NCBI GenBank assembly: GCA_027491155.1
Contig: JAIXWR010000042.1
Location: forward strand, 62,001-126,000
Direction of reading: 5' to 3'
From: Verrucomicrobiaceae bacterium
GTDB lineage: Bacteria > Verrucomicrobiota > Verrucomicrobiia > Verrucomicrobiales > Akkermansiaceae
Length of the DNA: 64,000 nt
Part shown: positions 806 through 24,437 of the stretch, in pieces
Position numbering within the stretch: the stretch's first letter is position 1
How the letters are laid out: each line of letters opens with the position of its first letter
The notes under the pieces: generated by a model
What the model saw: only the letters and a program-made list of their open reading frames with translations
Databases searched by the model: none
What the model was told of the DNA's origin: nothing
Program-made: the position numbers and the translations under genes

Positions 806-1062
806 TGACCACAAAGGCGGGGGCATGTGCAAACCCAGAAGTCACGCCGCGCTACGTGGGCTAGTCGGTTACGCATCTCGATCGCGGGCTACACCGCATT
901 TTCACGGAGCAGGTTCTTGTGAAGCTATCGGAAGAACTGCGTAGGATTGTCGAAATCATGCGCAGCACTCCAAGAATCTTTCAGATAGTTTGCCGATGTT
1001 GGAAGGACCCTTGAAATGGCGCACGATCCATCGCGGGCCTTCTTTAAAAGAAAGACAAGAAC

Positions 1063-1809: not shown

Positions 1810-1912
1810 GGCGATGGGGATTGGGGTTGGAATTATGCTTTCGGAGCTTGTCGAATCATGAGCCGGGCAGGACCCGCTCATGGTGACAACCTAGCGGCGT
1901 GAAATGAGATCC

Positions 1913-1950
1913 GCTCTGCGTCCCTGAGGAAAAACTCCGCATTTCTTCGG
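1913..1950 (-). promoter_or_regulatory. 38-nt bipartite motif, copy C (candidate AraC/PocR operator)
   Basis: On the minus strand this reads CCGAAGAAATGCG, 15 nt of spacer, then GACGCAGAGC. It matches the copies at 3030 and 15553 with identical spacing. It lies between the end of the AraC-type gene (1973) and the start of the secreted Cys-rich protein gene (1809), pointing at the latter. Two half-sites of about 10 nt at this spacing would suit a two-HTH AraC protein or dimer; the pairing with the regulator is inferred. Confidence 0.65.
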
Positions 1951-1972
1951 ATCGCCCGGTGCTGCCTACCCT

Positions 1973-2932
1973 TCAGATGGCGGCCAGTCCGGCGCGGTAT
2001 TCTCTCGGGGAGCAACCTTCGACTCGTTTGAATGCCCGGTTGAATTGCGATAGGGACTGAAAGCCGACCTCGAAGGCAATCTCGCTGATCCGCAAGCGCG
2101 GGTCTCGCAGGAGATCCCGAGCTTTCTGAATTCGGACACGGGTCAGGTACTCGATGAAATTGATCCCGGTCGTCTCCGCGAAGATGCCGCTGAAATAGTT
2201 GGCGCTCATGCCTGCCACGTGAGCCACCGAAGCGAGTGAGATTTCGTCGCTGAAGTTCTGCGCAATGAAGGCGCAGGCCTTCAAAACTTCCGGCCGTGCC
2301 GGTTGTTCCTGATTCAGGATCAGATTATTCCCGCATGAAGCGAGGTTGTGCGCGAATAGGTCGATCAAGTGGATCAGCGCCTCGTATTGTTTCGGCGGGA
2401 TGACCCGGGTCTGAAACCAAACCTCCTCGGCCTCCTTCAAATCAACCTGAACCCCGGAGTTCGCTAGTGCTCGCGAGACAGCGTCAAACTGCGACTTGTC
2501 GGGCCGATGGAGAAGAACCTGGCCGGTTTGGAGGAAGGCCACAAGATTGTCACCGATTCTCACGGGCACGGACGTTTCGCACAATCCAGCAAAGCATTGG
2601 ATTGTCTTGGTCTCCACGCAGGCCTCGGATTCCAATTCGTGCTGGGCGGCATAGCAGGCCTTGCAGCCTTCCACGCTTTTCGCCATCAGCGCGCAGAAGG
2701 GATTCTCCTGCCTTCGCTCGTACCGGACCACCGTGAACATCCCCGGGGCCTGGAGACGCAGTGGTAGTCCGGTGCCGGCGACGAATGCCCGCTCGTAGTC
2801 GCGATAGACTTTCGACCCAGAAAGAACCGTCACAACATTCTTCTCGGCCCGGGGGGCAGGAGTCGCACGGAAGCGGGGTTTGCATAGTCCGGATTTCATG
2901 ACTGACGCAGGGACGGTCACCAAGAAAGGCAA
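1973..2932 (-). CDS. PocR-domain AraC-family transcriptional regulator
   Basis: The protein has 319 residues. The N-terminal half is a PocR-type sensory domain with the typical cysteine pattern: CALMAKSVEGCKACY, then further on CFAGLCETSVPV, with GDNLVAFLQTGQV between it and the linker. In this family the Cys set is thought to bind a small ligand or metal. The C-terminal about 100 residues are an AraC/XylS DNA-binding domain with two HTH motifs, including ISLASVAHVAGMSANYFS and ISEIAFEVGFQSLSQFNRAF. It sits between two copies of the repeated 38-nt motif (1913, 3030) and is divergent from the Cus operon, so I infer that it controls both neighbours and perhaps itself. The start at 2932 is the longest; ATG at 2899 is equally possible. 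Confidence 0.9.
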   Translation of the reverse strand: MPFLVTVPASVMKSGLCKPRFRATPAPRAEKNVVTVLSGSKVYRDYERAFVAGTGLPLRLQAPGMFTVVRYERRQENPFCALMAKSVEGCKACYAAQHELESEACVETKTIQCFAGLCETSVPVRIGDNLVAFLQTGQVLLHRPDKSQFDAVSRALANSGVQVDLKEAEEVWFQTRVIPPKQYEALIHLIDLFAHNLASCGNNLILNQEQPARPEVLKACAFIAQNFSDEISLASVAHVAGMSANYFSGIFAETTGINFIEYLTRVRIQKARDLLRDPRLRISEIAFEVGFQSLSQFNRAFKRVEGCSPREYRAGLAAI

Positions 2933-3236
2933 GACTAACCCTCCACTTCTCCCATTTCAAGATGGGAATCTCGAAGTAGCCAGAACAGATCCACGAAGGA
3001 TTTGCGAGGTCATCCCCGCAACACGCGACCCGAAGAAATGCGGACATTTTTCGAGCGGACGCATAGCAGTGAATCGGCTCGCGCTTCATGTTTAGTCCGC
3101 ATGGTGCTAACAGGACCGCCAACATCCAACCAAGCCCCGGGTGCAATGGAGAGTCCTGACACCATCGCACCCCAGACGGAAACCCAACCGCTGTTCATTG
3201 CCGAACCTTCCGGCAAGACGGCTAAGGATTCACACA
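2933..3236. other. Divergent intergenic region between regulator and Cus operon
   Basis: This 304-nt stretch has no convincing gene. It contains the 38-nt motif at 3030-3067. An open frame from about 3148 (MESPDTIAPQ) runs into the next gene in another frame, but it has no recognisable features. Confidence 0.6.
3030..3067 (+). promoter_or_regulatory. 38-nt bipartite motif, copy A (candidate AraC/PocR operator)
   Basis: The sequence is CCGAAGAAATGCG, 15 nt spacer, GACGCATAGC. It lies 169 nt upstream of the epsilon-like gene that opens the Cus operon and about 100 nt upstream of the divergent regulator gene, so it could serve both promoters. Confidence 0.65.
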
Positions 3237-3524
3237 ATGAAACACCTGACCGTCAAACTCAGCACGCCGAACGGGCTATTCTTTACTGCGAGTGCTTCGT
3301 CGATCGACCTGCGAACCAAGGACGGCTGCTTCCATGTCCATTCAGGCCATCAAAGCTTCCTGAACATGGTCCACGCGACCGAGATCACATGCCTGACCAC
3401 GGATGGCATTTACGTCTTCGACCTCTCAAACGCCGTTGCAGGCCTGAAAGGAAGAACGTTCACCGTACTCGCGGAACGCATCCGCCGGATCGAACCGGAT
3501 GGCGTCCCAAATTCTCCGCCGTGA
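3237..3524 (+). CDS. Stand-alone ATP-synthase-epsilon-like beta-sandwich protein (95 aa)
   Basis: The chosen start (MKHLTVKLSTPNG) gives 95 residues. The pattern follows the N-terminal beta-sandwich of F1F0 ATP synthase subunit epsilon: a TPNG turn, a variable strand, DGCFHVHSGHQSFLNMV in place of the usual DGxxGILPGHxPLL, and FTVLAE near the end in place of VTVLA. The helical C-terminal hairpin of true AtpC is absent, and no other ATP synthase gene is near. It is followed 25 nt later by the outer-membrane factor of a metal efflux operon, so it is probably part of that operon. Its role is unknown; a metal-binding or assembly role is only a guess. His and Cys residues (CFHVHSGH, ITC) are present in the loop region. 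Confidence 0.65.
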   Translation: MKHLTVKLSTPNGLFFTASASSIDLRTKDGCFHVHSGHQSFLNMVHATEITCLTTDGIYVFDLSNAVAGLKGRTFTVLAERIRRIEPDGVPNSPP

Positions 3525-3549
3525 TCCACGTCATCACCCAGCTTTCCCC

Positions 3550-4926
3550 ATGAATTTCAAGTCCCATGGATCAGCCGTCTCGATCTTCTGCCCGCTGACC
3601 AGTGGAGTCCTCGCCGCGTTGCTCCTTGCCGGCTGCACCGGCTTCCCGACGACCGGCGAGCTGGAGGCGCAGCAGGATCTTGCTGCGGTAGGCAGCGAGT
3701 TCCGGCCTGGGGACGGGGGGGCGCCGCTGCCCGCCCTGAGTGCGGACAGCTCGCTCGGGGTTTACCTCCGCTACGCGGTCCTCAATCAGCCTCAAGTCGA
3801 AGCCGCTTACTACGACTGGGCGGCATCGGTGCGAAACATCACCGTGGAAAGATCGCTGCCGGATCCGCGGCTAACCTTCTCCGCCGACGTTACGAGCATG
3901 GTGGAGGCGCTGATGCCCGGGCTGATGATGGACTTGCCCGGGCCGGGCAAACTGAAAGCTGCCGCCGGGGTCGCCACCGCCGAGAGCCGGGCGAAATACT
4001 ACGCCTTCGAATCCAGCGTCCTTCAGGCGGCGTTCGCGCTGAAGAAGGCCTACTACGAGCTTCATTTTCTTGAAGGCAAGGTCCGCGTGAACCAGGAGAC
4101 CCTGAGCCTCGCGAACGACGTGGAGAAGCTGGCTCGTTCCCAGAACGAAGCGGGCAAGGTCACCTTGCAGGACGTGCTGAGAGCCCAGATGGAGCAGGAT
4201 CGCCTCACCACGGAGATCGAGAACTTGGAGGATTCACGGAATCCGGCTGTGGCGCAATTCAAGTCCGCCCTGGGACTCAAGTGGAAAGACTCCGCGCCTC
4301 CGGTCCCGAATCGGTTCGAGTCCACGCCGCTGAACTTGGATTCCGATGAGTTCATGGCGAGCGCACTGGCGCGAAATCCGAGACTGCGGGCGATGGAGGC
4401 CGAGGTCCAGGGTGCGGACGCGTCGCTGCGTCTCGCCTACAAAGCACGCGTGCCGGATTTCTCGGTGGGCCTGGAGGCCGACGTGAAATCGTCACCGCTG
4501 ATGGTGACGCCCCAGTTGGGGATCAGCCTTCCGGTCTGGCGCGACAAGACGGCCGCCCAGATTGCCGCGGCGCAGGCGAACAAATCGGCGGCGGAAGCCC
4601 GGCTCTCGGCGGAGGAGATCGCGCTCGCGGTGGAGTACGCAGAGAAATCATTCCTCCTCCGTGAAGCGAGCCGTAGCCTCGACCTCCTCAGCGGGCGGTT
4701 ACTGCCCAAGGCCCGCCAATCCGTCGAGGTGGCGCAGTCGGGCTATGTCACGGCAAAGGTCGATTTCCTCAACCTGCTGGACGCCCAGCGCACGTTGCGG
4801 GACCTGCAGTTGGCCGAGGTCGAAGCCCGCCTCCAGCGTGAACTCGCACTCGCCGAACTGTCCCTGGTGGTCCTCGGCAAGCTGCCGGAAGACGCGCCGG
4901 TCCTCTCACAGAAAGAGTCGCCATGA
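3550..4926 (+). CDS. TolC-family outer-membrane efflux lipoprotein (CusC-like)
   Basis: The start at 3550 (MNFKSHGSAV) gives 458 residues with a signal peptide ending in the lipobox LLAGC, so the mature protein is acylated as in CusC. The body shows the duplicated long-helix architecture of outer-membrane factors: repeated stretches such as LARSQNEAGKVTLQDVLRAQ and ARQSVEVAQSGYVTAKVDFL precede the pore-forming strands in each half. It would form the trimeric outer-membrane tunnel of the tripartite metal pump. Its stop overlaps the start of the adaptor gene (ATGA at 4923), so the two are translationally coupled. Confidence 0.93.
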   Translation: MNFKSHGSAVSIFCPLTSGVLAALLLAGCTGFPTTGELEAQQDLAAVGSEFRPGDGGAPLPALSADSSLGVYLRYAVLNQPQVEAAYYDWAASVRNITVERSLPDPRLTFSADVTSMVEALMPGLMMDLPGPGKLKAAAGVATAESRAKYYAFESSVLQAAFALKKAYYELHFLEGKVRVNQETLSLANDVEKLARSQNEAGKVTLQDVLRAQMEQDRLTTEIENLEDSRNPAVAQFKSALGLKWKDSAPPVPNRFESTPLNLDSDEFMASALARNPRLRAMEAEVQGADASLRLAYKARVPDFSVGLEADVKSSPLMVTPQLGISLPVWRDKTAAQIAAAQANKSAAEARLSAEEIALAVEYAEKSFLLREASRSLDLLSGRLLPKARQSVEVAQSGYVTAKVDFLNLLDAQRTLRDLQLAEVEARLQRELALAELSLVVLGKLPEDAPVLSQKESP

Positions 4927-6293
4927 AAATCGCAATTCATCGAAAGCCCCTGCTCATCGCGCTCGCGATCCTCGTTCTGGGAGGCGGCCTTGCGGCATGG
5001 TGGGGACGCTCAGCGAATGGGAACGGCGAGACCGCTGCCGCTCATTCTTCCGAAGCGCCGGAAGGCGGTAGCGGATCGATGCTGGAACTGTCCGATCACG
5101 CCCGGGCCATGGCGAGCGTGGCAACAACGCCCGTCGAGCGTCGCAAGATGACCCGCGAGATCCGGGTGGTCGGAAAGGTCGAATACAACGAGACCGCCTT
5201 GGCGATCATCACCACGCGGGTCGAGGGCTACGTTGAGCGGCTCTTTGTGGACTACACCGGTGTCGAGGTGAAAGCCGGGGATCACCTGGTGGAAATCTAC
5301 AGTCCCGACCTTCTCGTCGCGCAGCAGGAGCTGTTGATCGCGATGAGCGGGCAGTCGAACGCCAGCCTCGTCGAGTCGGCCAAGCGGAAGCTGCTACTCT
5401 GGGGCCTCACCCAGGAGCAAGTGGATGCTCTTGTCCGCGACAAGAAGACCAGCGATCGCATCACGCTCTTCTCCCCGATCAAGGGCACGGTCACGGAGAA
5501 GATGGTCGTTCAGAAGGCGATGGTGAAGCCCGGTGAGGTCCTTTACCGGCTGGCGAACCTCGAATCCGTTTGGGTTTACCTCGATCTCTACGAGCACGAG
5601 ATGCCGTGGGTGCAGTATGGCCAGATGGTCGAGGTCAAATCCGAAGCGATCCCCGACCGTACGTTTTCGGGCCGCGTCTGGTTCATCAATCCGGTGCTCA
5701 ATGAGGAAAGCCGCACGGTCAAGGTCTTGCTCAACATCGACAACGCCGACCACAAGCTGAAGCCCGGCATGTATGTGAGCGCGGTCATCCGCGCCGAGAT
5801 CCGCGCCAACGGGAAGGCCGCCGCCACCGGGGTCGAAGGCCAGTGGAGCTGTCCGATGCATCCCCTCATCATGAAGGAGCAGGCAGGACCGTGTCCCGTC
5901 TGCAAGATGGACCTTGTCCAGATTCCCGGCGCCAGCCCCGCCACGCCGCAGGACGACGCTCTCCCGCTGTCCGTCCCCGTGACCGCCGTCCTTGATAGCG
6001 GCATCCGCAAGCTGGTCTATGTCGAGAAGTCCAAGGGCCAGTATGTCCCGGTCGAGATTGTGACCGGACCCCGGACGGACGATGCCTATCCCGTCCTGAG
6101 CGGCCTCGACGAGGGAGACCTCGTCGTCACCCGCGGGAACTTCCTCCTTGATAGCCAGTTCCAGATCCGCGGCCTGCCCAGCCTGTTTTACAAGGAAGGC
6201 CAGGCCGCCGCCGTCGGCCATCAGCATGGCGGCAAGGCGCCGTCAGAGGCCGACCCCAAGGTTCAAACTCCCCCGGCCCCTCACAAGCACTGA
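4923..6293 (+). CDS. cusB: RND periplasmic adaptor with heavy-metal-binding domain (CusB-like)
   Basis: This 456-residue membrane-fusion protein starts with a signal-anchor (PLLIALAILVLGGGLAAWW). It continues with the split barrel-sandwich and helical hairpin typical of CusB (VEGYVERLFVDYTG and later PIKGTVTEKMV). Near residue 308 it carries a small metal-binding insert WSCPMHPLIMKEQAGPCPVC, the heavy-metal-binding domain found in CusB/SilB-type proteins, with Cys, Met and His ligands. A His-rich tail (GHQHGGKAP, PHKH) follows. It would gather Cu(I)/Ag(I)-like ions in the periplasm and deliver them to the pump. It overlaps the upstream gene by 4 nt, and the pump gene starts 3 nt after its stop. 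Confidence 0.93.
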   Translation: MKIAIHRKPLLIALAILVLGGGLAAWWGRSANGNGETAAAHSSEAPEGGSGSMLELSDHARAMASVATTPVERRKMTREIRVVGKVEYNETALAIITTRVEGYVERLFVDYTGVEVKAGDHLVEIYSPDLLVAQQELLIAMSGQSNASLVESAKRKLLLWGLTQEQVDALVRDKKTSDRITLFSPIKGTVTEKMVVQKAMVKPGEVLYRLANLESVWVYLDLYEHEMPWVQYGQMVEVKSEAIPDRTFSGRVWFINPVLNEESRTVKVLLNIDNADHKLKPGMYVSAVIRAEIRANGKAAATGVEGQWSCPMHPLIMKEQAGPCPVCKMDLVQIPGASPATPQDDALPLSVPVTAVLDSGIRKLVYVEKSKGQYVPVEIVTGPRTDDAYPVLSGLDEGDLVVTRGNFLLDSQFQIRGLPSLFYKEGQAAAVGHQHGGKAPSEADPKVQTPPAPHKH

Positions 6294-6296
6294 CCG

Positions 6297-9200
6297 ATGA
6301 TCAATGCCGTCATTCGCTGGTGCTTGACGCACGTCTTCATCGTCGTGCTCGGAGTCGTCGCGATCTGCGGGGTCGGCTACTACGCGATCTCGAACACGCC
6401 CGTCGATGCGATCCCGGACGTCGGCGAGAAGCAGGTCATCGTCTTCGCCGACTGGGCCGGCCGCTCGCCGCAGGACGTGGACAACCAGGTGACCTATCCG
6501 CTGACGACGAGCCTGACCGGCACGCCGGGGGTGAAGTCGATCCGCTCAATGTCGGGGTTCGGGTTCTCGATGGTCTTCGTCATCTTCAAGGACAACGTCG
6601 ATTACTACTGGGCGAGGTCGCGGGTACTCGAACGCATCAATGTCGCCCAACAGCGCTTGCCTGCCGGGGTCACGCCGGTGCTGGGTCCCGATGCCACCGC
6701 GCTCGGCCAAGTGTTCTGGTACACGGTCGAGGGCGAAGGGTTCGACCTCGCTGAACTTCGTTCCATCCAAGACTGGTACCTGCGCTACCAGCTCAACTCG
6801 GTCGATGGCGTGAGCGAGGTCGCCAGCATCGGCGGCCACGTGAAGCAGTACCAGATCGACGTTCACCCGGACAAGCTGCGCGCACAGCGCGTCACGCTGA
6901 TGGACGTTTACGAGGCGGTGCGAAACTCGAACATCGATGTCGGTGCGAAGGTTCTGGAAAAGAACGGCGTCGAGTTCTTCATCCGCGGCGTCGGCTTCAT
7001 CAAGTCGGTCGAGGACTTGGAGAAGATCGTCATCCGGCAGGAAGGCGGCACGCCCATTCAGGTGAAGCATGTCGCCACCGTCAGTCTGGGACCGGAGTTC
7101 CGCCGCGGCTCGCTCGACAAGTCGGGGGTTGAAGCCGTCGGAGGGGTGGTGCTGATGCGCTACGGCGAGAACCCGCTCCATGTCGTCGAACGGGTGAAGG
7201 AAAAGATCCGACAACTGGAGATTGGCCTGCCACAGAAGACCCTCGCGGACGGTCGGATCTCGAAGGTCAAAATTGTCCCCTTCTACGACCGCACCGACAT
7301 TGTGGGCGAAACCATTGACACCCTCAAGGAGGCGCTGACGGAAGAACTGCTGATGGCCAGCGCGGTCATCTTCATTTTCCTGCTTCACCTGCGCAGCACG
7401 GTGTCGGTGATCGTCACGCTACCGCTTTCCGTCGGGCTCTGCTTCATTCTGATGTACTTCTTTGGCGTCGATGCGAACATCATGTCGCTGGCCGGCCTCG
7501 CCATCGCGATCGGCGACGTGGGCGATATGGGGATCATCATGACGGAAAACATCTACCGTCACATCGCCACCGGAGACAAAGGCAGGAGCCATTTCCAAAA
7601 GGTCTTCGACGGTGCCTCCGAAGTCGGTGGCGCGATCGTCACCGCCGTGTCGAACACCCTCGTCTCTTTCATCCCCGTCTTCTTCCTTGCCGGACAAGAA
7701 GGGAAAATGTTCCGGCCTCTCGCGTTCACCAAAACCTTTGCCATCGGAGCCTCGGTGATCCTGGCCCTGACGGTGGTGCCGCTTGTTTGCTACTTCCTGT
7801 TCCGGCCGGTGAAGTTTTCCAAGCGGACCGGTTGGCTGATTGCCAGCGGACTCGGGCTCGTATCGGTCTTCGCCGCCCACTGGGTCTTCATGTGGGTCCT
7901 GGCGGGAAGCCATTACAGCGGCTGGCCGATGTCAGTGGTGGTGGGCGTGATCGTAACCCTTGCGGTCGTACGCATGACCCGGGAGCGCTTTCTGCCGATC
8001 GAAGAGAACCCGGTTTCTCACGGCATCGCCCGGGTTTACACGCCGGCCCTGCGGTGGATTCTCGCCCACAAGAAGACCTACCTCATCGCGCCCGTGACGA
8101 TTCTTCTGATCGGGCTCACCATCTGGCTTGGCATCGGCACCATGCTCGCACCGGTTGGCTGGGTCATCAACCGCTTCGCCCGCGAGAAAGCCTCGCCGGA
8201 GCTGAAGCAGGCGATGTCCCGGGATGCCGCTGACGACGTGACGCGCCCGCTCGTCGAGTTCGACCAACTGCGCTGGCAGCACGTGAAGAGTTCCGACGGC
8301 TCCATGCACCGGCGCATCGCATGGCGGCGGCACGACCCGAAGGAGCACGGCCCCGAGGTCGTCCAGGAGACGCGGATCCTGCCGGGCATCGGCCGGGAGT
8401 TCATGCCGCCGCTCGACGAGGGTTCCTTCCTCTACATGCCGTCGTTGCTGCCGCAGGCCGGCCTCGGTCCCGCGGTCGAGGTCAATGCGAAGCAGGACAT
8501 GGCGATGGCTACCGTGCCCGAAGTCGAATCCGTCGTCGGCAAGCTGGGCCGGGCCGAGTCCGCTCTCGACCCCGCGCCGATCGGCATGATGGAAAGCATC
8601 GTCATCCTCAAGCCGGAGGCGGAGTGGCGGCACGTGCCGGTCGAGCGCTGGTTCTCGGGCTGGCCGGACGGGTTGAAGCAACCGCTGACATGGATCTGGC
8701 CGGAGCACCGGAGCATCACGAAAGACGAGATCCTCACCGAGCTTCAGGAGAAGACCGCCATTCCCGGCGTGCTGCCGACCTTCCTCCAACCGATCCAGAC
8801 CCGCCTGGTCATGCTGCAAACCGGGTTTCGTGCCATGATGGGCGTCAAAATCTACGGCAGCAACCTGAAGGAAATCGAGCGCATCGGCTTGGAGATCGAA
8901 CAGCTCCTCAAGCAGGTTCCCGGCGCGACCGACATCGTCGCCGACCGCATTGTCGGCAAGCCTTACTTGGAGTTTGAAATCGATCGCGACCGCATTGCCC
9001 GCTACGGCGTCAGCATCCGCGACGTGCAGGACGTCATCGAGGTCGCCGTCGGCGGGATGAACATCATGGAGTCGGTCGAAGGTCGGGAACGCTATCCCAT
9101 CCGCGTCCGCTACCTGCGGGAGTTCCGCGAGGACGTTCCCGAGTTGGAGAAAATCCTCGTGCCGAGTTCCAGCGGGGCGCAAATCCCGCTGGCGCAGGTG

Positions 9201-9992
9201 GTCACCATCAAGAGCGTGCTCGGCCCGCAGGAAATCAAGGGCGAGCGTGGTCTGCTGGTCGGTTACGTGACGATGAACACCCGCGACCGCGACGAGGTGA
9301 GCGTGGTCGAGGATGCCGAAGTCCTGCTCCAAAGCGCGGTGCGCGAGGGCCGCCTCAAACTGCCCGCCGGCTACTACTGGGAATGGAGCGGCCAGTTCGA
9401 GAACCAGGTCCGCGCCGCCAAGCGCATGAGCATACTGGTGCCGGTCTGCCTCTTCATCATGTTCGTGATGCTCTACCTCGGCTTCAAGCGCTGGTGGATC
9501 GCACCGATCATCTACTTCGGCATTCTCACCTCGGCGGCCGGCGGCTTCATCATGCTCGCGCTGTGGGACGTGAATCTTTCCATCGCGGTGTGGGTCGGCT
9601 TCCTCGTCCTCTTCGGCGTGGTCGATGACGACGGCGTGATCATATCGACCTACCTCGAAGACAATTTCGACAATGCGACTTTCGGCTCCGTGCAAGACAT
9701 CCGCGAAGCCGTCGTTCAAGCCGGCCTCAAGCGGATCCGTCCCAGCCTGATGACCATCTCGACTACGATCTTCGGCCTGATGCCGATCTTCTGGGCCACC
9801 GGCCGAGGCTCGGACGTGATGCGGCCGATGGCGATCCCGAGCGTGGGCGGCATGGTCGTGAGCGTGCTTGTGACGATCTTTCTCACGCCGTGCCTGTTTT
9901 CCGCAGTCGAGGAGTGGAAATGGAAGCGGAGTCAACGCCGCATGATTTCTGCCCCCGGCAATCCGGAGGCTGATTCAGGGGAACCTGCGTGA
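6297..9992 (+). CDS. cusA: Heavy-metal RND efflux pump, extended CusA/SilA type (1231 aa)
   Basis: The protein has the two-fold repeated topology of HME-RND pumps: an N-terminal TM helix, a large periplasmic loop (WAGRSPQDVDNQVTYPL), a bundle of TM helices, a second loop and a second bundle. TM4 contains an acidic residue in AIGDVGDMGIIMTEN, at the place of the CusA proton-relay aspartate. TM10 has DDDG where CusA has an AEFG-type motif. The usual length is about 1040-1060. Here an extra segment of roughly 170 residues at about 530-700 adds two or three more predicted membrane helices (WVFMWVLAG, IAPVTILLIGLTIWLGIG) and a charged soluble part before REFMPPLDEGSF. It ends the tripartite operon, probably exporting Cu(I)/Ag(I)-type ions, judged mainly from the adaptor. 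Confidence 0.93.
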   Translation: MINAVIRWCLTHVFIVVLGVVAICGVGYYAISNTPVDAIPDVGEKQVIVFADWAGRSPQDVDNQVTYPLTTSLTGTPGVKSIRSMSGFGFSMVFVIFKDNVDYYWARSRVLERINVAQQRLPAGVTPVLGPDATALGQVFWYTVEGEGFDLAELRSIQDWYLRYQLNSVDGVSEVASIGGHVKQYQIDVHPDKLRAQRVTLMDVYEAVRNSNIDVGAKVLEKNGVEFFIRGVGFIKSVEDLEKIVIRQEGGTPIQVKHVATVSLGPEFRRGSLDKSGVEAVGGVVLMRYGENPLHVVERVKEKIRQLEIGLPQKTLADGRISKVKIVPFYDRTDIVGETIDTLKEALTEELLMASAVIFIFLLHLRSTVSVIVTLPLSVGLCFILMYFFGVDANIMSLAGLAIAIGDVGDMGIIMTENIYRHIATGDKGRSHFQKVFDGASEVGGAIVTAVSNTLVSFIPVFFLAGQEGKMFRPLAFTKTFAIGASVILALTVVPLVCYFLFRPVKFSKRTGWLIASGLGLVSVFAAHWVFMWVLAGSHYSGWPMSVVVGVIVTLAVVRMTRERFLPIEENPVSHGIARVYTPALRWILAHKKTYLIAPVTILLIGLTIWLGIGTMLAPVGWVINRFAREKASPELKQAMSRDAADDVTRPLVEFDQLRWQHVKSSDGSMHRRIAWRRHDPKEHGPEVVQETRILPGIGREFMPPLDEGSFLYMPSLLPQAGLGPAVEVNAKQDMAMATVPEVESVVGKLGRAESALDPAPIGMMESIVILKPEAEWRHVPVERWFSGWPDGLKQPLTWIWPEHRSITKDEILTELQEKTAIPGVLPTFLQPIQTRLVMLQTGFRAMMGVKIYGSNLKEIERIGLEIEQLLKQVPGATDIVADRIVGKPYLEFEIDRDRIARYGVSIRDVQDVIEVAVGGMNIMESVEGRERYPIRVRYLREFREDVPELEKILVPSSSGAQIPLAQVVTIKSVLGPQEIKGERGLLVGYVTMNTRDRDEVSVVEDAEVLLQSAVREGRLKLPAGYYWEWSGQFENQVRAAKRMSILVPVCLFIMFVMLYLGFKRWWIAPIIYFGILTSAAGGFIMLALWDVNLSIAVWVGFLVLFGVVDDDGVIISTYLEDNFDNATFGSVQDIREAVVQAGLKRIRPSLMTISTTIFGLMPIFWATGRGSDVMRPMAIPSVGGMVVSVLVTIFLTPCLFSAVEEWKWKRSQRRMISAPGNPEADSGEPA

Positions 9993-10020
9993 GTCCTTCG
10001 ACGTCTAACAACCGAAGACT

Positions 10021-10740
10021 ATGAATTCATCAGTGCTTCAGAAGCCGGCGAGCGAGCGAAGTTGTAGCCGGAACCCAGCGACCGGGGTTCAGATCCGCAT
10101 CGGGGTCATGGGGTCCGCCGCGGAAGCGATCGATCCGGAACAGGTGGAACAATGCCGCCGTCTGGGGCGCGCCCTTGCCGAAGAAGGATGCTGTGTTCTC
10201 ACGGGAGCCTGTCCGGGAATGCCACACGAAGTGGTGCTCGGCGCAAAGGAGGCAGGTGGGCATTCGATGGGCATCTCCCCAGCGATGCACCTCAAGGAGC
10301 ACATCGAAACCTTTGCGTCACCTTACCTGGAATACGACGTGATGGTTTACACCGGCCTCGGCCTGATGGGCCGGGAACTCATCAACATCCGCAGCAGCGA
10401 CATCGTCGTGCTGGCGGGCGGACGCTGCGGCACACTCGGGGAATTCGCCATCGCCTATGAGGAGGGCAAGCTCATCGGCGTTCTCACCGGTACAGGCGGG
10501 ATTACCGATGTGCTGCATGACGTGGTGGCTACCCTTGGCAAAAAGACCGGATCCGAGGTGATCTACGATGCAGACCCGCAGATGCTCATCATCCGGTTGC
10601 TGGAGCGTTTCCAATCGGCTGACTACGCGTGCAACTGCAAGCCGGACTGCTGCCATTGCCAGCCGGCAAAGTCCTCTTTCCCGCAAACTCCGCCGTCCCC
10701 GGATGTCCGAGGCGCGGGTCCCAGCCAGGCATCGCCATGA
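10021..10740 (+). CDS. LOG-family (TIGR00725-like) Rossmann protein with Cys-rich tail
   Basis: This 239-residue protein has a Rossmann nucleotide-binding fold of the LOG/lysine-decarboxylase-like superfamily: IRIGVMGSAAE at the start, LTGACPGMPHE, and the hallmark GGRCGTLGEFAIAYEEGK. Relatives cleave nucleoside monophosphates or bind nucleotides. The last 35-40 residues are not part of the fold and contain a cysteine cluster, CNCKPDCCHCQ, likely a thiolate metal site. The gene follows the Cus pump by 28 nt and overlaps the next gene (ATGA at 10737), so it is probably in the same operon. Its substrate cannot be told from the sequence. Confidence 0.85.
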   Translation: MNSSVLQKPASERSCSRNPATGVQIRIGVMGSAAEAIDPEQVEQCRRLGRALAEEGCCVLTGACPGMPHEVVLGAKEAGGHSMGISPAMHLKEHIETFASPYLEYDVMVYTGLGLMGRELINIRSSDIVVLAGGRCGTLGEFAIAYEEGKLIGVLTGTGGITDVLHDVVATLGKKTGSEVIYDADPQMLIIRLLERFQSADYACNCKPDCCHCQPAKSSFPQTPPSPDVRGAGPSQASP

Positions 10741-12800
10741 AGTCGCCGCGACTATTCCTCGCACTGCTTTGGCACCAGCATCAGCCTTGCTACGGCGACT
10801 TCTCGAAATCGGACACCGGCATTTGCTTTCCCGTGCCTTGGGTCCGTCTCCACTCCTTGCGCGACTACTACTCGATGGCGGCGCTGGTTGCGGAGTTCCC
10901 CGGGATTCACCTCACGATCAATCTCACGCCGATCCTTCTCCGGCAAATCGAGGACTATGCGAAGCGAGACGCCACGGATACCGCACTTGAGTTGACCCGC
11001 ACGCCAACCCGCCATCTGACGGCGGACCAGAGGGAGGTGCTCCAGAGGATATTCTTCGATGCCGACTGGCACAACGAGATCTATCCCCACGCACGCTACA
11101 AGGACCTGTTCGACCGGCGCGGAAGCGGCGTGGCGCTGGACGACCGCGACATCACGGACCTCCGCATGTGGTTCAACCTCGCCTGGTTCGCGCCGGAGTT
11201 CCAGCAAGGGGAGGTGCCATTGCCGGACGGCACCAAGGCTTCGGTGAAGCGCTTCATCGAGAAGGCTTGCGACTTCAGCGAGGAAGACATCGCCGCAATG
11301 GTTCACGAGCAGTTCAAGGTCATCCGGAACGTCGTGGCCATCCACCGGCAACTTCAGGAAGCGGGCCAGATCGAGGTCGCCACCACCCCGTTCGACCATC
11401 CGATTCTGCCCCTCCTACACGATAGCGACCTCGCCATCCTGGATCGCGCGGGTTCCCTGTTGCCGCAACGATTCTCCTATCCGGAGGATGCGGAAGCGCA
11501 AACACGCGAAGCCGTGGAATACTATGAGCAACTGTTCGGGCGGAAGCCGTCCGGGATGTGGCCGGCGGAGGGGGCTGTCGGCGAGTCGGTTATACCGCAT
11601 TTCATGAAACAAGGTCTGCGCTGGATCGCCAGCGACATGGGTGTCCTGCGACGTTCCGGAGAGTGGGGTTACGAAGCGGATCGCCCAGACCTCCGCGGCA
11701 AGGCCTGGCGAGCGGGCAGCGACACCCCGGAGGAATGCGTGTCCATTTTCTTCCGCGACGCCGATCTAAGCGACGCCGTCGGTTTCCGCTATGCCCGTGT
11801 CGAGCCGCATCACGCGGTCGATGACTTCATCTCGACGCTCAAACGCCGCTACGGAGCAGCAGGACCAGGTGACAGGATTGTCTCGGTCATCCTCGACGGC
11901 GAGAATGCGTGGGGCTCCTATCAGCAGGCGGGCAGGCCGTTCTTCGAAGAACTCTATCGGCGTCTGGTTGCGGATGAGGAGATCTGCACGGTCACGTTCG
12001 ATGAATGGCTGCGCGGATCGGCGGCACGGGGTGTCGCGGAGCACCCGATCACGGAGCAGGAGCGAGTGTGCAAGCTGGCCCACGCATCATGGATCGACGA
12101 ATGCGGTTCGCTGCCTGGCAACGATCTGGGCACGTGGATCGGTGAGCACGACGAGAATGCCGCATGGAACTTGCTGCGCGAGACCCGGGATGCGGTGGGC
12201 AAAAGCATGACAGCAGCCACCCTTCCTCACGCCTTCGATGCTCTCCATGCTGCGGAAGGGAGCGATTGGTACTGGTGGTTCGGCGATGATCAGAACTGCG
12301 ACGCCGAACCGCTTTTCGATGATCTCTTCCGCCAGCACCTCCGGGCTGCTTATCTCCTAGGGGGGCTGGAAGCGCCCGCAGCTCTCGATCGTCCCCTCGT
12401 GCCTCATGTCGTGACGTGGAGCTTTCCCGACCGCATCTCGCACCTGTTCCCGGGCGATCTGTTTCGCTTCCGGGCGGGGTGCCCCGGCGTTCTCACCTGG
12501 TGCACGGGCGATTCTGCAGTGATGCGTGAGACGGCCCTCCGCCAGAGCGGTGGAGTGATGGCAGGACTCAATGTCTATACCGCCACGCTGGGTCCTTTCG
12601 ATGAGAATGCCGTTTACGTCGAATTCCGGTTTCAATGCGGCTGCACTCCAATTTGCCACTGCGCGCCGGGAGACCTCTGCTGCAAGGGCGAGCAATACCG
12701 GGTGCTCGTCGGCAACACACCCCCGGATCCTCGATCCAGAGCACACGCGGACTCGTCACCAGTGGAATCACTCTCCGCTCCGCGTCGTGCACGAGCCTAA
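10737..12800 (+). CDS. Glycoside hydrolase family 57 enzyme with Cys-rich C-terminal segment
   Basis: The start overlaps the upstream stop (ATGA). The 687-residue protein has GH57 motifs in order: WHQHQPCY near the N-terminus, IEVATTPFDHPILPLL, WPAEGAVGE with the putative nucleophile Glu, and LDGENAWGSY with the putative acid/base Asp. GH57 enzymes act on alpha-1,4-glucans (amylase, glucanotransferase or branching activities). No signal peptide is seen, so it should be cytoplasmic. Near the C-terminus the segment CGCTPICHCAPGDLCC resembles the Cys cluster of the LOG protein encoded just upstream. A glucan enzyme coupled to a metal-efflux operon is unusual; a link to polysaccharide or glycogen stress metabolism is inference. 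Confidence 0.88.
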   Translation: MKSPRLFLALLWHQHQPCYGDFSKSDTGICFPVPWVRLHSLRDYYSMAALVAEFPGIHLTINLTPILLRQIEDYAKRDATDTALELTRTPTRHLTADQREVLQRIFFDADWHNEIYPHARYKDLFDRRGSGVALDDRDITDLRMWFNLAWFAPEFQQGEVPLPDGTKASVKRFIEKACDFSEEDIAAMVHEQFKVIRNVVAIHRQLQEAGQIEVATTPFDHPILPLLHDSDLAILDRAGSLLPQRFSYPEDAEAQTREAVEYYEQLFGRKPSGMWPAEGAVGESVIPHFMKQGLRWIASDMGVLRRSGEWGYEADRPDLRGKAWRAGSDTPEECVSIFFRDADLSDAVGFRYARVEPHHAVDDFISTLKRRYGAAGPGDRIVSVILDGENAWGSYQQAGRPFFEELYRRLVADEEICTVTFDEWLRGSAARGVAEHPITEQERVCKLAHASWIDECGSLPGNDLGTWIGEHDENAAWNLLRETRDAVGKSMTAATLPHAFDALHAAEGSDWYWWFGDDQNCDAEPLFDDLFRQHLRAAYLLGGLEAPAALDRPLVPHVVTWSFPDRISHLFPGDLFRFRAGCPGVLTWCTGDSAVMRETALRQSGGVMAGLNVYTATLGPFDENAVYVEFRFQCGCTPICHCAPGDLCCKGEQYRVLVGNTPPDPRSRAHADSSPVESLSAPRRARA

Positions 12801-12818
12801 CTTTAGTCCCCGCTTACC

Positions 12819-15533
12819 ATGCAGACCGATCCCGTTTCATCCGAGGCCGTGGCCTGGCATATGCAAGAGCCGCAGGCCGTCCTTCGGCAGCTCCAGACTT
12901 CGAGCGACGGACTGGCCGCCGCGGAGGCCGCCCGCCGCCTTGGCATTGATGGTCCCAACGAGCTGAAGGAAGCCAAGCGCATCAGTCCGTGGCAGATCTT
13001 TCTTGGCCAGTTCAAGAGCCTCATCATCTGGATCCTCATCATTGCCGGCGTGGTCTCGGGCCTGCTCGGGGAAGGGGTGGATGCCATCGCCATCCTCGCA
13101 ATCGTCGTCCTCAACGCCGTCATTGGTTTCTATCAGGAGTACAATGCGGAGAAGTCCATCGCGGCGCTCAAGAAAATGACCGCGCCGCTGGCCAAGGTAA
13201 GGCGCGACGGAGCAGTCGCCTCGATTCCCGCCTCGGGAATTGTCACCGGCGACATTCTCGAATTGGAAGCCGGCGACTTGGTCGCGGCTGATGCCCGGCT
13301 GCTGTCCGCCGCGTCGCTCAAGTGCATCGAAGCCGCACTGACCGGCGAATCGGTGGCGGTGAACAAGCAGCCTGCGGCGCTGGAACAACGGGACGTCCCG
13401 CTGGGCGACCGCGAGAATATGGTTTTCATGGGCACGAGCGTGGCTGCGGGCACCGGCCGCGCCGTGGTGGTGGCCACCGCGATGCAAACCGAACTGGGCC
13501 GCATTGCAGGCCTCATCGAATCCGCCGGCGCTCAAGAAAGCACTCCGCTCCAACAGAAGCTCGATTCGTTCGGTCGCATACTCGTGTGGGCGACGCTCGG
13601 CATCGTCGCGATGCTGTTCGGTCTTGGGTTGCTCCGCGGGACTCCCGCCTTCGAGTTGTTCATGACGTCGGTCAGCCTCGCTGTGGCGGCCGTCCCGGAG
13701 GGCTTGCCCGCCGTCGTCACGGTCTCGCTCGCGCTCGGCGTCCTTCGCATGTCCCGCCGCCGCGCCCTGGTGCGAAAGTTGCCAGCGGTCGAGACCCTCG
13801 GATCGACGACCGTCATCTGCACGGACAAGACCGGCACCTTGACGGTCGGCGAAATGACCGTCCGCTCGCTTCATGTCGGCGGCCAAAGCTACGAAGTCAC
13901 CGGAGAAGGCTACGGGCCCGAGGGCGAAGTGCGCCTTCAAGGGGCGAAGCCTGACGCGCAACATACCGAGTCTTTGCTCGAACTGGCGACCGTCATCATC
14001 GGCTGCAACAACGCCCACCTCGTTCAGGAAGAGGGGACGTGGAAAGTCATCGGCGATCCGACCGAAGGCGCATTGTTGGCCGCGGGCTCCAAAGCCGGCG
14101 GACACCGCCAGCGCATCGAGCAGGACCTGCCCAAGCATCACGAGATCCCCTTCGACTCCGACCGCAAGCGCAGCACCGTGGTCCGCAAGTTGCCGGACGG
14201 AAAACTTCGTGCCTTCATCAACGGCGCGCCCGATGTGCTGTTGGAACGTTGCACGGCACTCTACACCAGCGCTGGAATCCGGCCGCTCACGGACGATGAC
14301 CGCACACGGATCGAGGCGGAGAACGCCAGCATGGCAGGACAGGCCTTGCGGGTTCTCGGCTCCGCCTATCGTGACTTGGATCACGCCCCGCCGGGTTCCC
14401 TGACGGTTGACAGTGTCGAGCGGGACCTCGTGTTCGTCGGGCTCACCGGCATGTATGATCCACCGCGGCAGGAGGCCAAGGAAGCGGTGGCAAAGTGCCG
14501 CGCCGCCGGGATCCGGGTGGTGATGATCACTGGCGATCATCCTCACACCGCGGCAGCCATCTCGCGGGAACTTGGCATTTCTTCGGGTGACAGGATCGCC
14601 GTCACCGGCGCGGACCTCGACAAGATGTCTGACGGCGAACTGAAGCGGATCGCCCCCGAGACGGCCGTTTATGCCCGCGTCACGGCCGAGCACAAGCTGC
14701 GGATCATCCGTGCATGGAAGTCGAACGATGCCGTCGTGGCGATGACAGGCGACGGGGTCAACGACGCCCCCGCCATCAACGGGGCGGACATCGGCATCGC
14801 CATGGGAAGATCGGGCACTGAAGTCACCAAGCAGGCGTCCGACATGATCGTCACCGACGACAACTTCGCCTCCATCGTCGCCGCCGTGGAAGAGGGGCGC
14901 GGGATCTACGACAACATCCGCAAAACGCTCCAATACCTCCTTGCGGGCAACACCGGCGAACTGCTGCTGATGACGGCCTGCGTCCTGGCGGGCCTCCCTG
15001 CGCCGTTGCTCCCGATTCACCTGCTCTGGATCAATCTGGTCACCGACGGTCTGCCCGCGCTTTGCCTGGCGACCGACCCGATCGACCCTGACGTGATGAA
15101 GCGGCGCCCGCGCGCACGGAACGAAAGGATCACCGACGGCGGCTTTCTCAGCATCATGGTCTTTACCGGGATCCTCACGGCCGGCGTCTCATTTGCGGTC
15201 TATTTCCACACGCTGAAATCCGGGACCCCGGAAATGGCGCGGACCCATGCCTTCGCGGTGCTGGTTTTTGCTGAACTCTTGCGTTCCTTTGGTGCCCGCA
15301 GCGCCACCAAGCCGGTCTGGCGCATCCCGCTATCGGGCAATCTGATGCTCTTCGCCGTGGTGAGCGTCACTTTCGCCCTGCAAGTATGGAGTCACCACAA
15401 CGACACGTTGGCGCGATTGCTGAAGACCACCCTGTTGCCGCTCCCGGATTGCTTCATGCTCTTGGCCGTCGGGACCATTCCACTTGTCGTTTTGGAGGGG
15501 TTGAAACTGGTGAAGAAATCCGTGGAAGCATGA
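12819..15533 (+). CDS. P2A-type (Ca2+-ATPase-like) cation-transporting P-type ATPase
   Basis: The protein has 904 residues, normal for bacterial P2 ATPases. Visible elements in order are the cation-ATPase N-terminal domain; the actuator loop TGES (about 175-178); TM4 PEGLP (about 293-297) as in SERCA/PMR1-type pumps; the phosphorylation motif DKTGTLT with Asp336; the MITGDHPHTA and TGDGVNDAP hinge motifs; TM6 NLVTDGLPALCLATDP; and a C-terminal membrane bundle. It likely exports Ca2+ or possibly Mn2+. It begins 18 nt after the GH57 gene and is probably co-transcribed. No heavy-metal CPC motif is present, so it is not a copper or zinc P1B pump. Confidence 0.92.
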   Translation: MQTDPVSSEAVAWHMQEPQAVLRQLQTSSDGLAAAEAARRLGIDGPNELKEAKRISPWQIFLGQFKSLIIWILIIAGVVSGLLGEGVDAIAILAIVVLNAVIGFYQEYNAEKSIAALKKMTAPLAKVRRDGAVASIPASGIVTGDILELEAGDLVAADARLLSAASLKCIEAALTGESVAVNKQPAALEQRDVPLGDRENMVFMGTSVAAGTGRAVVVATAMQTELGRIAGLIESAGAQESTPLQQKLDSFGRILVWATLGIVAMLFGLGLLRGTPAFELFMTSVSLAVAAVPEGLPAVVTVSLALGVLRMSRRRALVRKLPAVETLGSTTVICTDKTGTLTVGEMTVRSLHVGGQSYEVTGEGYGPEGEVRLQGAKPDAQHTESLLELATVIIGCNNAHLVQEEGTWKVIGDPTEGALLAAGSKAGGHRQRIEQDLPKHHEIPFDSDRKRSTVVRKLPDGKLRAFINGAPDVLLERCTALYTSAGIRPLTDDDRTRIEAENASMAGQALRVLGSAYRDLDHAPPGSLTVDSVERDLVFVGLTGMYDPPRQEAKEAVAKCRAAGIRVVMITGDHPHTAAAISRELGISSGDRIAVTGADLDKMSDGELKRIAPETAVYARVTAEHKLRIIRAWKSNDAVVAMTGDGVNDAPAINGADIGIAMGRSGTEVTKQASDMIVTDDNFASIVAAVEEGRGIYDNIRKTLQYLLAGNTGELLLMTACVLAGLPAPLLPIHLLWINLVTDGLPALCLATDPIDPDVMKRRPRARNERITDGGFLSIMVFTGILTAGVSFAVYFHTLKSGTPEMARTHAFAVLVFAELLRSFGARSATKPVWRIPLSGNLMLFAVVSVTFALQVWSHHNDTLARLLKTTLLPLPDCFMLLAVGTIPLVVLEGLKLVKKSVEA

Positions 15534-15552
15534 GGCACGCACGCTTGCAGAA

Positions 15553-15590
15553 CCGAAAAAATGCGCACTTATGCGGACCCGATGCGTAGC
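15553..15590 (+). promoter_or_regulatory. 38-nt bipartite motif, copy B (candidate AraC/PocR operator)
   Basis: The sequence is CCGAAAAAATGCG, 15 nt spacer, GATGCGTAGC. It lies 20 nt after the P-type ATPase stop and 112 nt upstream of lipoprotein copy 2. The spacing is the same as in the two other copies. Confidence 0.65.
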
Positions 15591-15702
15591 GGGAAAAAGG
15601 TCGCGCGAATAGGGTGTCGATGTCGGATGGCTCGCTGGCATGGGATGGTTCCCATGATCGAAAGAGACGTGACACCGATCAAACACCGAATCAAAGCATA
15701 CT

Positions 15703-18654: not shown

Positions 18655-19098
18655 TCACTCGTCGCAAGTGCAGGCGTATTCCGGGTTGCTGCAACCGCCG
18701 CAGGTGGTGAGGTCCAGCTTGATGCGGAAGTTCTTCGGCTTCGCGTCAGCCGTTGGCTTCACCTGAAGGACCACGGTGTAGTGCTCGCCTTCCGGAAGCG
18801 GGGTTTTAGAGACGAGCAGGTCACCCTTTTTCTCAAATTCCAGCTTCTGCTTCCCGCTTGGGGCTTCGGCAGTGGCGGTCACGGTCTGGGCTGCGACGGG
18901 CTCGTTCTTTTTCAACTCCTTGTCCAGAAAGGCGATGCTGACGGTGCGGTCCTTCTCGACGAAGAACTCGGCATGGTGGCCGTCGACTTCCAGAACACGG
19001 CCTTTGCGGGGACCGGCCTTGATGGTGACATCGGCGAGAGTGCTGCCGGCAAAGGCAACGAACAGGGTGGCGGTGATGAGACGAACGATGGTTTTCAT
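18655..19098 (-). CDS. Periplasmic metal-binding protein with C-terminal Cys motif, copy 1
   Basis: The start at 19098 (MKTIVRLITATLFVAFAG) gives 147 residues with a signal peptide ending SLA-type (TLADV). The mature part is a small beta-rich domain (VLEVDGHHAEFFVEKDRTV, LPEGEHYTVVLQVKP) followed by a terminal thiolate cluster, TCGGCSNPEYACTCDE. The protein at 31236 has the same layout and the same ending (CxxC, EYACTC). It is the last gene of the second czc operon and overlaps the pump stop by 4 nt (ATGA). It probably binds the exported metal or hands it to the pump in the periplasm. Confidence 0.8.
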   Translation of the reverse strand: MKTIVRLITATLFVAFAGSTLADVTIKAGPRKGRVLEVDGHHAEFFVEKDRTVSIAFLDKELKKNEPVAAQTVTATAEAPSGKQKLEFEKKGDLLVSKTPLPEGEHYTVVLQVKPTADAKPKNFRIKLDLTTCGGCSNPEYACTCDE

Positions 19099-22000: not shown

Positions 22001-22250
22001 AACGCAGTTCCACCATGTCGGGGAGGCCCGACATTTCGCTCTCGATGGGAAAGCTCACGAGCTTCTCCACTTCTTCCGGCGCGAGAGCGGGAACGGCGGT
22101 ATTGATCTGCACCTGCGGATTGGTGATGTCCGGGACGGCATCAATCGGCAGGCGCAGCATGGCCCAAGTCCCCACGCCGAGCAGCACGAGGGTGGCGAGC
22201 AGCACCGCCACGCGCTGGCGCATGGCGAAGTTCAGGAGGTGATCCAGCAT
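19095..22250 (-). CDS. czcA: Heavy-metal RND efflux pump, CzcA type
   Basis: The 1051-residue protein has the usual length and topology of HME-RND pumps. The N-terminus contains PIDAVPDITNPQVQINT, a CzcA hallmark. TM4 holds two acidic residues in GAVDFGLIIDGAVVMVEN, the DFxxxxD motif of the Co/Zn/Cd-type subgroup (HME1). The second half keeps GQFKNLQEAKQRL and GIAVLNGIMLISF. It should export divalent cations such as Zn2+, Co2+ or Cd2+. It lies 6 nt downstream of a short adaptor gene and 4-nt-overlaps the metal-binding protein gene. Confidence 0.95.
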   Translation of the reverse strand: MLDHLLNFAMRQRVAVLLATLVLLGVGTWAMLRLPIDAVPDITNPQVQINTAVPALAPEEVEKLVSFPIESEMSGLPDMVELRSLSKFGLSQITMTFKDGVDLYRTRQLVTERLQGVLDELPPGLSPKLAPIATGLGEIFYYTLDYTAEAADKPATREEQLMALRQIQEYTVKPLLRGTQGVAEVNTSGGYERQLVIQPDPAKLAATGLSLDSLAEIVEQNTANAGGGYVEIGGEQLIVRAPTRVTSAEEISKLPLKFGAGVKPILLSEVATVAIGSSFRTGASTHEGEEALVGAAIMLAGENTRLVAEAVRTKLEEIQEKLPPGVAIKSVYDRSELVNRTIHTVEKNLSEGAILVVVVLFLLLGNFRAAFIVALVIPLSMLMAMTGMVRMGVSGNLMSLGAVDFGLIIDGAVVMVENIVRHLGEKQHELGRRLTVQERSREVLRSAKEVANPMFFGVLIITVVYLPILALQGIEGKMFKPMAVVVMLALGGSLVLALTLMPVLCSYLLGGNIKEKDNWLVTLVKAIYTPLLKFGLRFRWLIVLPMFALFGWSTVVFSKLGSEFIPQLDEGDFTFQLIRSSSAGLTASVDLQKQSEAVLRREFPEIRDIFSRIGTAEIASDPMGPNVSDTYVMLQPRETWRKVDGKPIEKEALGDIMRRRLLDQVPGQNILVSQPIQMRFNEIMAGSRADLLCKIYGDSYDELERLAGEVRQVINSIPGGAETEFDAIGKVPMIEIQPDREAMQKFNVHADDVNRLIETALAGGEVGTLIEGNRRTPIIVRLSESRRADLPSLERLPLRTEEGGLLALGQVAKVKLVDQVNQIAREDTQRRVSVLINVRGRDTASFVHEATQAIHERVKFPAGYYFEFGGQFKNLQEAKQRLMIVVPLALALIFVLIFLSFNSLRQAALIFLCVPLAVTGGIFALSLREMPFTISAAVGFIALSGIAVLNGIMLISFINQLREEGRTLRDAVVEGTLTRLRPKLMTALVASLGFLPMALATGAGAEVQRPIATVVIGGIVTSTFLTLLVVPLLYEWLERKTKPRNQTPVTP

Positions 22251-22256
22251 GGCGGT

Positions 22257-22982: not shown

Positions 22983-22993
22983 GGTGAAGAATA

Positions 22994-24289: not shown

Positions 24290-24437
24290 GGCATGAAAAG
24301 TTGGAACAAATGGAAAGCGGGGCCTGGATCGCACGCGCTGCCGGCTGACCGGCCGGGAAGGGATGCACCGGAGTACGATGCGAAAACATAGATCCACCCG
24401 GAAGTGGGTGATCTTCAACAGGGCGGACAACCCCGGA

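Follow-up and report, generated by a model that had tools for sequence, protein, structure and literature searches.

AraC bound at araI1-I2 and the SoxS and RamA class II complexes exemplify the class II layout of transcription activation. A different set of functions, those of the FNR and ANR regulons, comprises cbb3 oxidase, CcoG, HemN, pyruvate:ferredoxin oxidoreductase (PFOR), universal stress proteins and cytochromes. In Salmonella PocR, which has cob and pdu targets, R51A is reported to abolish the sensing of 1,2-propanediol and replacement of D64 with Ala to disrupt it (PMC11264322). The stretch of DNA analysed here, referred to as the window, comprises 64,000 nucleotides from a Verrucomicrobiaceae bacterium (GCA_027491155.1, contig JAIXWR010000042.1; C9:62001-126000 of the genome labelled G000, which has 5,729,541 bases in 46 contigs), in which an earlier note had described a 38-nt bipartite motif around a gene for a protein with a PocR sensor and an AraC-type helix-turn-helix (HTH), and had proposed a metal-response regulon. 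To judge from the sequence comparisons below, the motif is well supported as the predicted operator of this neighbouring PocR-AraC protein. We further consider it likely that operator and hexamer form an activator promoter, and that the regulator arose by duplication within a low-oxygen, FNR-like family and uses an operator dialect of its own.

Three exact copies of the motif (s1 to s3, Table 1) lie where the earlier note had placed them and are, as it held, far beyond chance, with 0.00 copies expected in 100 dinucleotide shuffles. They precede and point at genes, the gaps from motif end to start codon being 103 nt for the Cys-rich gene, 169 nt for the epsilon-like gene and 112 nt for lipoprotein copy 2 (ATG 15703), and the regulator gene stands between two of them. 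The note's count of three holds for exact copies; it had missed a fourth, diverged one, s0 (CGGAAGAACTGCG-N15-CATGCGCAGC), 96 nt before lipoprotein copy 1, as well as a 21-bp repeat and -10-like hexamers. With a matrix made from the other three copies s0 scores 21.0, the best non-site in the window reaching 11.6, and each of the four window sites is recovered in a leave-one-out matrix test; s0 has a counterpart at L012:378-415 in the Luteolibacter genome G008, and together with its -10 hexamer it is the sole match of G000, at 3 mismatches, to the Opitutus-type pattern of the phylum-wide scan given below. Genome-wide, the exact pattern (searched without its first C) occurs at the three places only and its reversed control at 0, while the relaxed pattern (up to 2 mismatches, widened so as to take in s0) gives 4 sites with 0 mismatches, all in one 15-kb cluster, and 3 places with 2 mismatches, which count as noise because the reversed control also yields 3.

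The motif repeats a single half-site in its two blocks: ATGCG-like cores occupy positions 9-13 and 30-34, each with N-A-G/C after it, and the operator is a direct repeat with no palindrome. Self-matching peaks at a 21-bp period in the window sites (7.75 of 14 matches; next 6.5 at 26), in the 13 sites of dialect A, as the operators of window-type regulators are called (7.85 of 14; next 6.15 at 26), and in the 213 of dialect B, the sites of homologous regulators (8.01 of 14; next 4.54 at 26). A -10-like hexamer occupies +20 to +25 from the operator end in 4/4 window sites, with A2 and T6 fixed, and the three corresponding sites of G008 carry TAGGTT, TACGTT and CAGATT at that position. Taken alone, the window sites give the A..T pair at +20 a P of 0.00075 with circular shifts and of 0.0005 with shuffles; for seven sites from the window and G008, three of which are orthologues of three others, it was matched in 0/20,000 shifts. 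Given a 17-bp spacer, the -35 element would share the final four bases of the motif, and the proximal half-site of AraC at araBAD overlaps -35 likewise. Class II activation is proposed because the proximal half-site covers the -35 position, and the predicted layout is that of a class II AraC-type promoter.

The motif and the hexamer 20 nt downstream would thus be the whole activator-dependent promoter of the protein encoded at 1973-2899. The half-sites, each of ~17 bp and 21 bp apart, would be occupied by two protomers in head-to-tail arrangement, RNA polymerase would be recruited as by a class II AraC activator, and four transcripts would be switched on, namely those of two small lipoproteins, of the Cys-rich secreted protein and of the epsilon-like/Cus/P-type ATPase operon, with predicted leaders of 65 (s0), 72 (s1), 138 (s2) and about 81 nt (s3). 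The AraC-type HTH, the head-to-tail half-sites with their period, the position of the proximal one and the fixed distance to -10 would all be shared with class II activation by AraC, whereas the regulator has a PocR (GAF/PAS-like) sensor in place of the sugar cupin of AraC.

The regulator matches PF10114 (PocR) with 72.3 bits at a cut-off of 23.9 and carries a C-terminal AraC double HTH; PocR and AraC are its only domains, a CRP-type HTH with the cNMP (cyclic nucleotide)-binding fold being absent. It resembles Salmonella PocR in this combination, but falls below the cut-off of the equivalog model NF047788 (89.1 bits vs 500) and has different targets. Its AlphaFold model has a mean pLDDT (predicted local distance difference test score) of 83.5, with lower values over residues 51-90, where three of the four conserved cysteines lie, and its fold matches are AraC HTH structures (PDB 7bef among them) and, for the sensor, GAF-like ones. 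The second HTH (QSLSQFNR) is identical in 14 compared sequences and the 3' GCG-N-AG portion of the half-site is also largely constant; the first HTH varies, with SANYFS in the window, SAFYFC in Opitutaceae-type proteins and SESHFC in the protein of contig C14, and so does the 5' part of the half-site, a parallel compatible with co-evolution of protein and predicted operator.

Among relatives the site travels with the PocR-AraC gene (G008, L048, L049). The closest relatives are those of G008 (72%), of the Akkermansiaceae metagenome-assembled genome (MAG) L048 (59%) and of L041, a paralogue in the same genome (59%), followed by L049, from a Spartobacteria MAG (56%), and L050, from a Chthoniobacterales MAG (53%); these form one clade (support 0.957, midpoint-rooted FastTree). 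Three sites were found in G008, four in L048, two in L049 and a weaker one in L050, those of the last three having scores of 18.7-34.8, where the reversed matrix reached at most 17.4 in 80 regulator loci. The regulator loci of G008, L048 and L049 hold sites, small lipoproteins and the epsilon-like gene, those of G008 and L048 the Cys-rich gene too, and in L048 sites precede the epsilon-like gene and three genes for small lipoproteins. The L050 operator precedes an open reading frame (ORF) resembling, by eye, a DoxX membrane protein (L050:10970-11944). With up to 1 mismatch, the relaxed pattern matches in G000 (4), G008 (3) and G005 (1) among 18 genus genomes, its control giving one match, in G001. 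Five genomes beyond G000 and G008, among 288 genomes of the order, encode a Cys-rich homologue (30-58%), and no close regulator relative was found at these five loci, tblastn giving only a partial match of 32% close to one end in L204 and in L205. None of the five (5/5) has an operator-like site, the best scores being 8.8-15.0 where the reversed control reaches 12.4, and the -10 is missing from all of the six top-scoring places at each locus. That the operator is bound by the PocR-AraC protein, as the earlier note supposed, is therefore supported by co-occurrence, by the lack of sites at 5/5 Cys-rich loci that have no close regulator relative and by the AraC-activator geometry, all of them predictions from sequence.

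The function of the family is suggested by homologous regulators, examined in 80 loci (L048-L127, 1.24 Mb, from named genomes) that were fetched by the regulator alone; related genomes share ancestry, and site and locus counts are thus non-independent events. The 13-site dialect-A matrix (-10 score required, at most 8 matches per locus) gave 52 matches in 35 of the loci, five of them training sites, and 0 in reversed sequence; after retraining on 33 of the matches, the operator columns alone found 146 sites against 4 in reversed sequence. The discovery of dialect B is not independent of dialect A, because the search began with the dialect-A matrix; controls come from reversed sequence, from sites outside the training set and from the presence of the regulator. 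Among 114 sites outside the training set, 82 (71.9%) have the A..T pair at +20, the mean of other offsets being 3.9%, and 38 have an ATG at +31 to +33, where other offsets average 1.5 each. Since these start codons lie 31-33 nt past the operator, about 6-8 nt past the -10, many dialect-B transcripts are probably leaderless, unlike those of class II AraC activation. Start codons at this distance were seen in L048-L127 and in L163-L170.

A CcoNO gene (E <= 1e-30) is present in 47/80 regulator loci and a site in 62/80, and 44 of the 47 have both. Curated models identify as downstream genes the bifunctional cbb3 subunit I/II (NF011053, 1184 bits), CcoG, HemN, ferrochelatase (HemH), PFOR, a dihydroorotate dehydrogenase-like protein, a universal stress protein (Usp) and cytochrome c; no Pfam match was obtained for a 90-aa protein which we take to be CcoS-like, for a conserved protein of ~155 aa or for the 173-aa ORF of contig C14. 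The conserved protein, of ~155-185 aa, occurs in 44/80 loci (L153:1651-2130, L092:12450-12941 and others), often behind an operator near ccoS or ccoNO; its L153 copy, the one searched, is the one that lacked a Pfam match. In a scan of 288 phylum genomes with the pattern including the -10 (up to 3 mismatches), 25 had matches and the reversed pattern gave 0. In family f9 (24 genomes, probably Opitutaceae), sites occur in 19/20 genomes with the regulator and in 0/4 without it (Fisher P 4.7e-4). The only ccoN of G000 above the cut-off lies on contig C14, where a third PocR-AraC gene, 36% identical to that of the window, follows a gene for a P-type ATPase whose N-terminus is CcoI-like. The 173-aa ORF, ccoNO and ccoG there are preceded by three sites, which belong to a third dialect (scores 19.4, 19.1 and 16.6, with the next at -4.8 and the reversed control at -7.4), with the hexamers TAGTCT, TCCACT and CATCGT; this pattern matches in 15/18 genus genomes and its control in 0, neighbours having been inspected for part of the matches. 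By its sites and their neighbours, the homologous PocR-AraC family looks like a low-oxygen regulator system.

As to the signal, C69, C79, C82 and C102 are Cys in 107, 107, 106 and 107 of 111 aligned regulators, the exceptions other than gaps being a single H at position 79, S at position 82 in G008 and L048, and G at position 102 in G008, and all four are invariant in 120/120 best-listed homologues of the cbb3-linked copy; because of this near-invariance the four cysteines are a trait of this regulator group. The family may respond to oxygen or redox state, perhaps through an iron-sulphur (Fe-S) cluster on these cysteines, and the window branch would have kept a low-oxygen or redox input. The likeness to FNR and ANR lies in the kinds of genes targeted by the homologous regulators and in four conserved cysteines; the differences are a PocR-AraC protein instead of the CRP fold, a direct repeat instead of the FNR palindrome, and a cluster that is only putative here. 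A strong full-length HTH_Crp_2 match was found in G190, G304, G123, G134 and G096, and none in G000, G008, G157 and G195 (4/9 genomes examined). Strong CRP-type matches being absent from some genomes and a CRP-type protein coexisting in others, PocR-AraC may therefore stand in for FNR in some of them.

Several observations weigh against a duplicated, FNR-like branch with this promoter. The four transcripts of the window include no recognised low-oxygen unit, unlike the microaerobic or anaerobic regulon seen for homologous regulators. The closest orthologues have lost sensor cysteines (C82S and C102G in G008, C82S in L048), because of which shared sensing chemistry cannot be assumed for the window branch. 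The 59% paralogue L041 has no recognisable operator within 18 kb. The -10 rule is broken at exactly +20 by 2/13 dialect-A sites, both in L048, the L050 hexamer is shifted by one base, and the hexamer before ccoNO of G000, TCCACT, lacks A2. Outside family f9 the association of site and regulator loosens: over 41 genomes, of which the 17 beyond f9 were picked with site counts already known, dialect-B sites occur in 23/32 with a regulator (E <= 1e-40), leaving 9 without sites, and 1/9 regulator-free genomes has a site (G307, one site).

A bolder version, which taken with all its parts appears possible and rather doubtful, would make PocR-AraC the FNR of Verrucomicrobiota: an oxygen sensor with a GAF/PAS-like PocR domain and a four-Cys, perhaps Fe-S, site, acting at 21-bp tandem operators to switch on genes for cbb3 oxidase, haem and fermentation, with a Luteolibacter-lineage duplicate bearing a changed first HTH, a private dialect and a private regulon. 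That regulon would make a second ATP-synthase epsilon subunit without C-terminal helices, possibly letting the enzyme run backwards at low oxygen, and would add lipoproteins at the surface and, since Cu(I) is at its most toxic when oxygen is absent, a Cus pump directed against this ion.

The proposal of the earlier note, that the PocR-AraC protein senses Cu, Ag or Zn through its Cys residues and that the motif defines a metal-response regulon, is weaker than the low-oxygen reading and on balance unlikely. It draws on the RND pump genes of the s2 operon, which encode a CusA/CzcA-family pump as in CusCFBA systems, on the position of paralogue L041 behind a second CusCBA-like operon (CusA-like protein 50%) with multicopper-oxidase-like ORFs (by eye), and on the need for copper in cbb3 assembly, the P-type ATPase gene before the C14 regulator included. 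In G008, L048 and L049, however, sites and core targets persist while the epsilon-like gene has no Cus gene behind it. In G008 no Cus match was found in 36 kb around the regulator, the epsilon-like gene being followed by an ORF that resembles (by eye) inositol monophosphatase, and in L048 and L049 the next feature is another operator with a lipoprotein gene and no pump, on contigs of 4.4 and 13.1 kb so short that a distant pump is possible. Only 2/80 regulator loci have a CusA-like match, both weak (27% and 23%), many of these contigs being short; linkage of regulator and metal genes was not found across relatives, paralogue L041 being the exception. The L041 island (L041:935-17404, G000:C9, before the window), read mostly by eye, is of copper type, with a MerR-like gene, a CusCBA-like operon, the regulator paralogue, a small Cys protein and two multicopper-oxidase-like genes. 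Metal sensing through Cys fares no better, as the G008 orthologue retains its operators despite the loss of two of the four cysteines, and the same four occur in regulators at cbb3 loci, where homologues have sites of the same geometry. The window regulator also differs in kind from the MerR, CusRS or CsoR type. Because many relatives of the regulator sit beside low-oxygen respiration genes, the motif may belong to a low-oxygen rather than a metal response.

It is considerably less probable that the operator belongs to another factor that happens to share the locus, such as an alternative sigma factor or a protein of CRP/FNR type. A strong CRP-type protein does lie near the cco cluster in some Opitutaceae-type genomes (G190, G304), and a sigma-factor promoter would equally explain the fixed spacing of operator and -10; the site, however, is a direct repeat and not a palindrome, G157 and G195 have 5 sites each in spite of their lack of a strong HTH_Crp_2 match, and the f9 sites track the PocR-AraC gene. 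A dispersed repeat with no regulatory role, suggested by several alike copies within one cluster, is scarcely credible, as spacers diverge between copies whereas both blocks are kept, the four copies all stand before genes with none elsewhere in the genome, and G008 keeps the corresponding site positions at 72% regulator identity.

Table 1. Predicted promoter elements and genes of the PocR-AraC locus (positions in the window)
Feature	Position	Strand	Evidence
Operator copy s0, before lipoprotein copy 1	929..966	+	Matrix score, relaxed pattern, G008 counterpart
-10-like hexamer TAGTTT of s0	986..991	+	
Small lipoprotein copy 1, 54 aa	1063..1227	+	78% homologue in G008
Secreted Cys-rich protein, 129 aa	1420..1809	-	142 homologues at E <= 0.001
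-10-like hexamer TAGGTT of s1	1888..1893	-	
Operator copy s1, before Cys-rich gene	1913..1950	-	Exact pattern
PocR-AraC regulator, 308 aa: PocR sensor 38-188, AraC HTH 226-303; Cys69, 79, 82, 102	1973..2899	-	
Operator copy s2, between regulator and epsilon-like/Cus operon	3030..3067	+	Exact pattern
-10-like hexamer CATGTT of s2	3087..3092	+	
Stand-alone ATP synthase epsilon beta-sandwich protein, 95 aa	3237..3524	+	PF02823, 32.6 bits
CusC-, CusB-, CusA-type RND efflux genes	3550..9992	+	CusA: TIGR00914, 910.4 bits
SLOG/TIGR00725-like protein, GH57 enzyme, P-type cation ATPase	10021..15533	+	SLOG-like 76.2 bits, under TIGR00725 cut-off
Operator copy s3, before lipoprotein copy 2	15553..15590	+	Exact pattern
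-10-like hexamer TAGGGT of s3	15610..15615	+	
Small lipoprotein copy 2, 55 aa	15703..15870	+	

Among the genes of the locus, those of the SLOG-like protein, the GH57 enzyme and the ATPase are the probable remainder of the epsilon-like/Cus operon, since they share its strand with short gaps. The ordinary atpC of G000 (137 aa) lies elsewhere, on contig C23; the gene of the second, beta-sandwich-only epsilon-like protein has an operator of this kind before it in G008 and L048, and in L049 it lies near the regulator. No Pfam or NCBIfam match was obtained for the Cys-rich protein. The two lipoproteins of the window belong to a family of tiny lipoproteins with an H-x-M-G core, also seen in L048 (194-616, 848-1009, 3564-3722) and in L049 after 11851, one of the L048 members containing the H-x-M-G unit twice. 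Further along the window, at 18655-24520 (-), lies another CusA-like RND pump, accompanied by ORFs that by eye resemble adaptor and outer-membrane proteins, with no operator copy before it.

Among the papers listed by searches of the open PMC literature, judged by titles and the beginnings of abstracts and with subscription literature outside their scope, no description of PocR-AraC proteins as low-oxygen regulators was found. The operators, -10 elements and predicted start sites given here can serve regulon mapping. For the large uncharacterised PocR-AraC group, of which 413 stretches in genome_contigs encode a relative, the analysis suggests a role, and it offers a testable answer to the question of how Verrucomicrobiota may control low-oxygen respiration.

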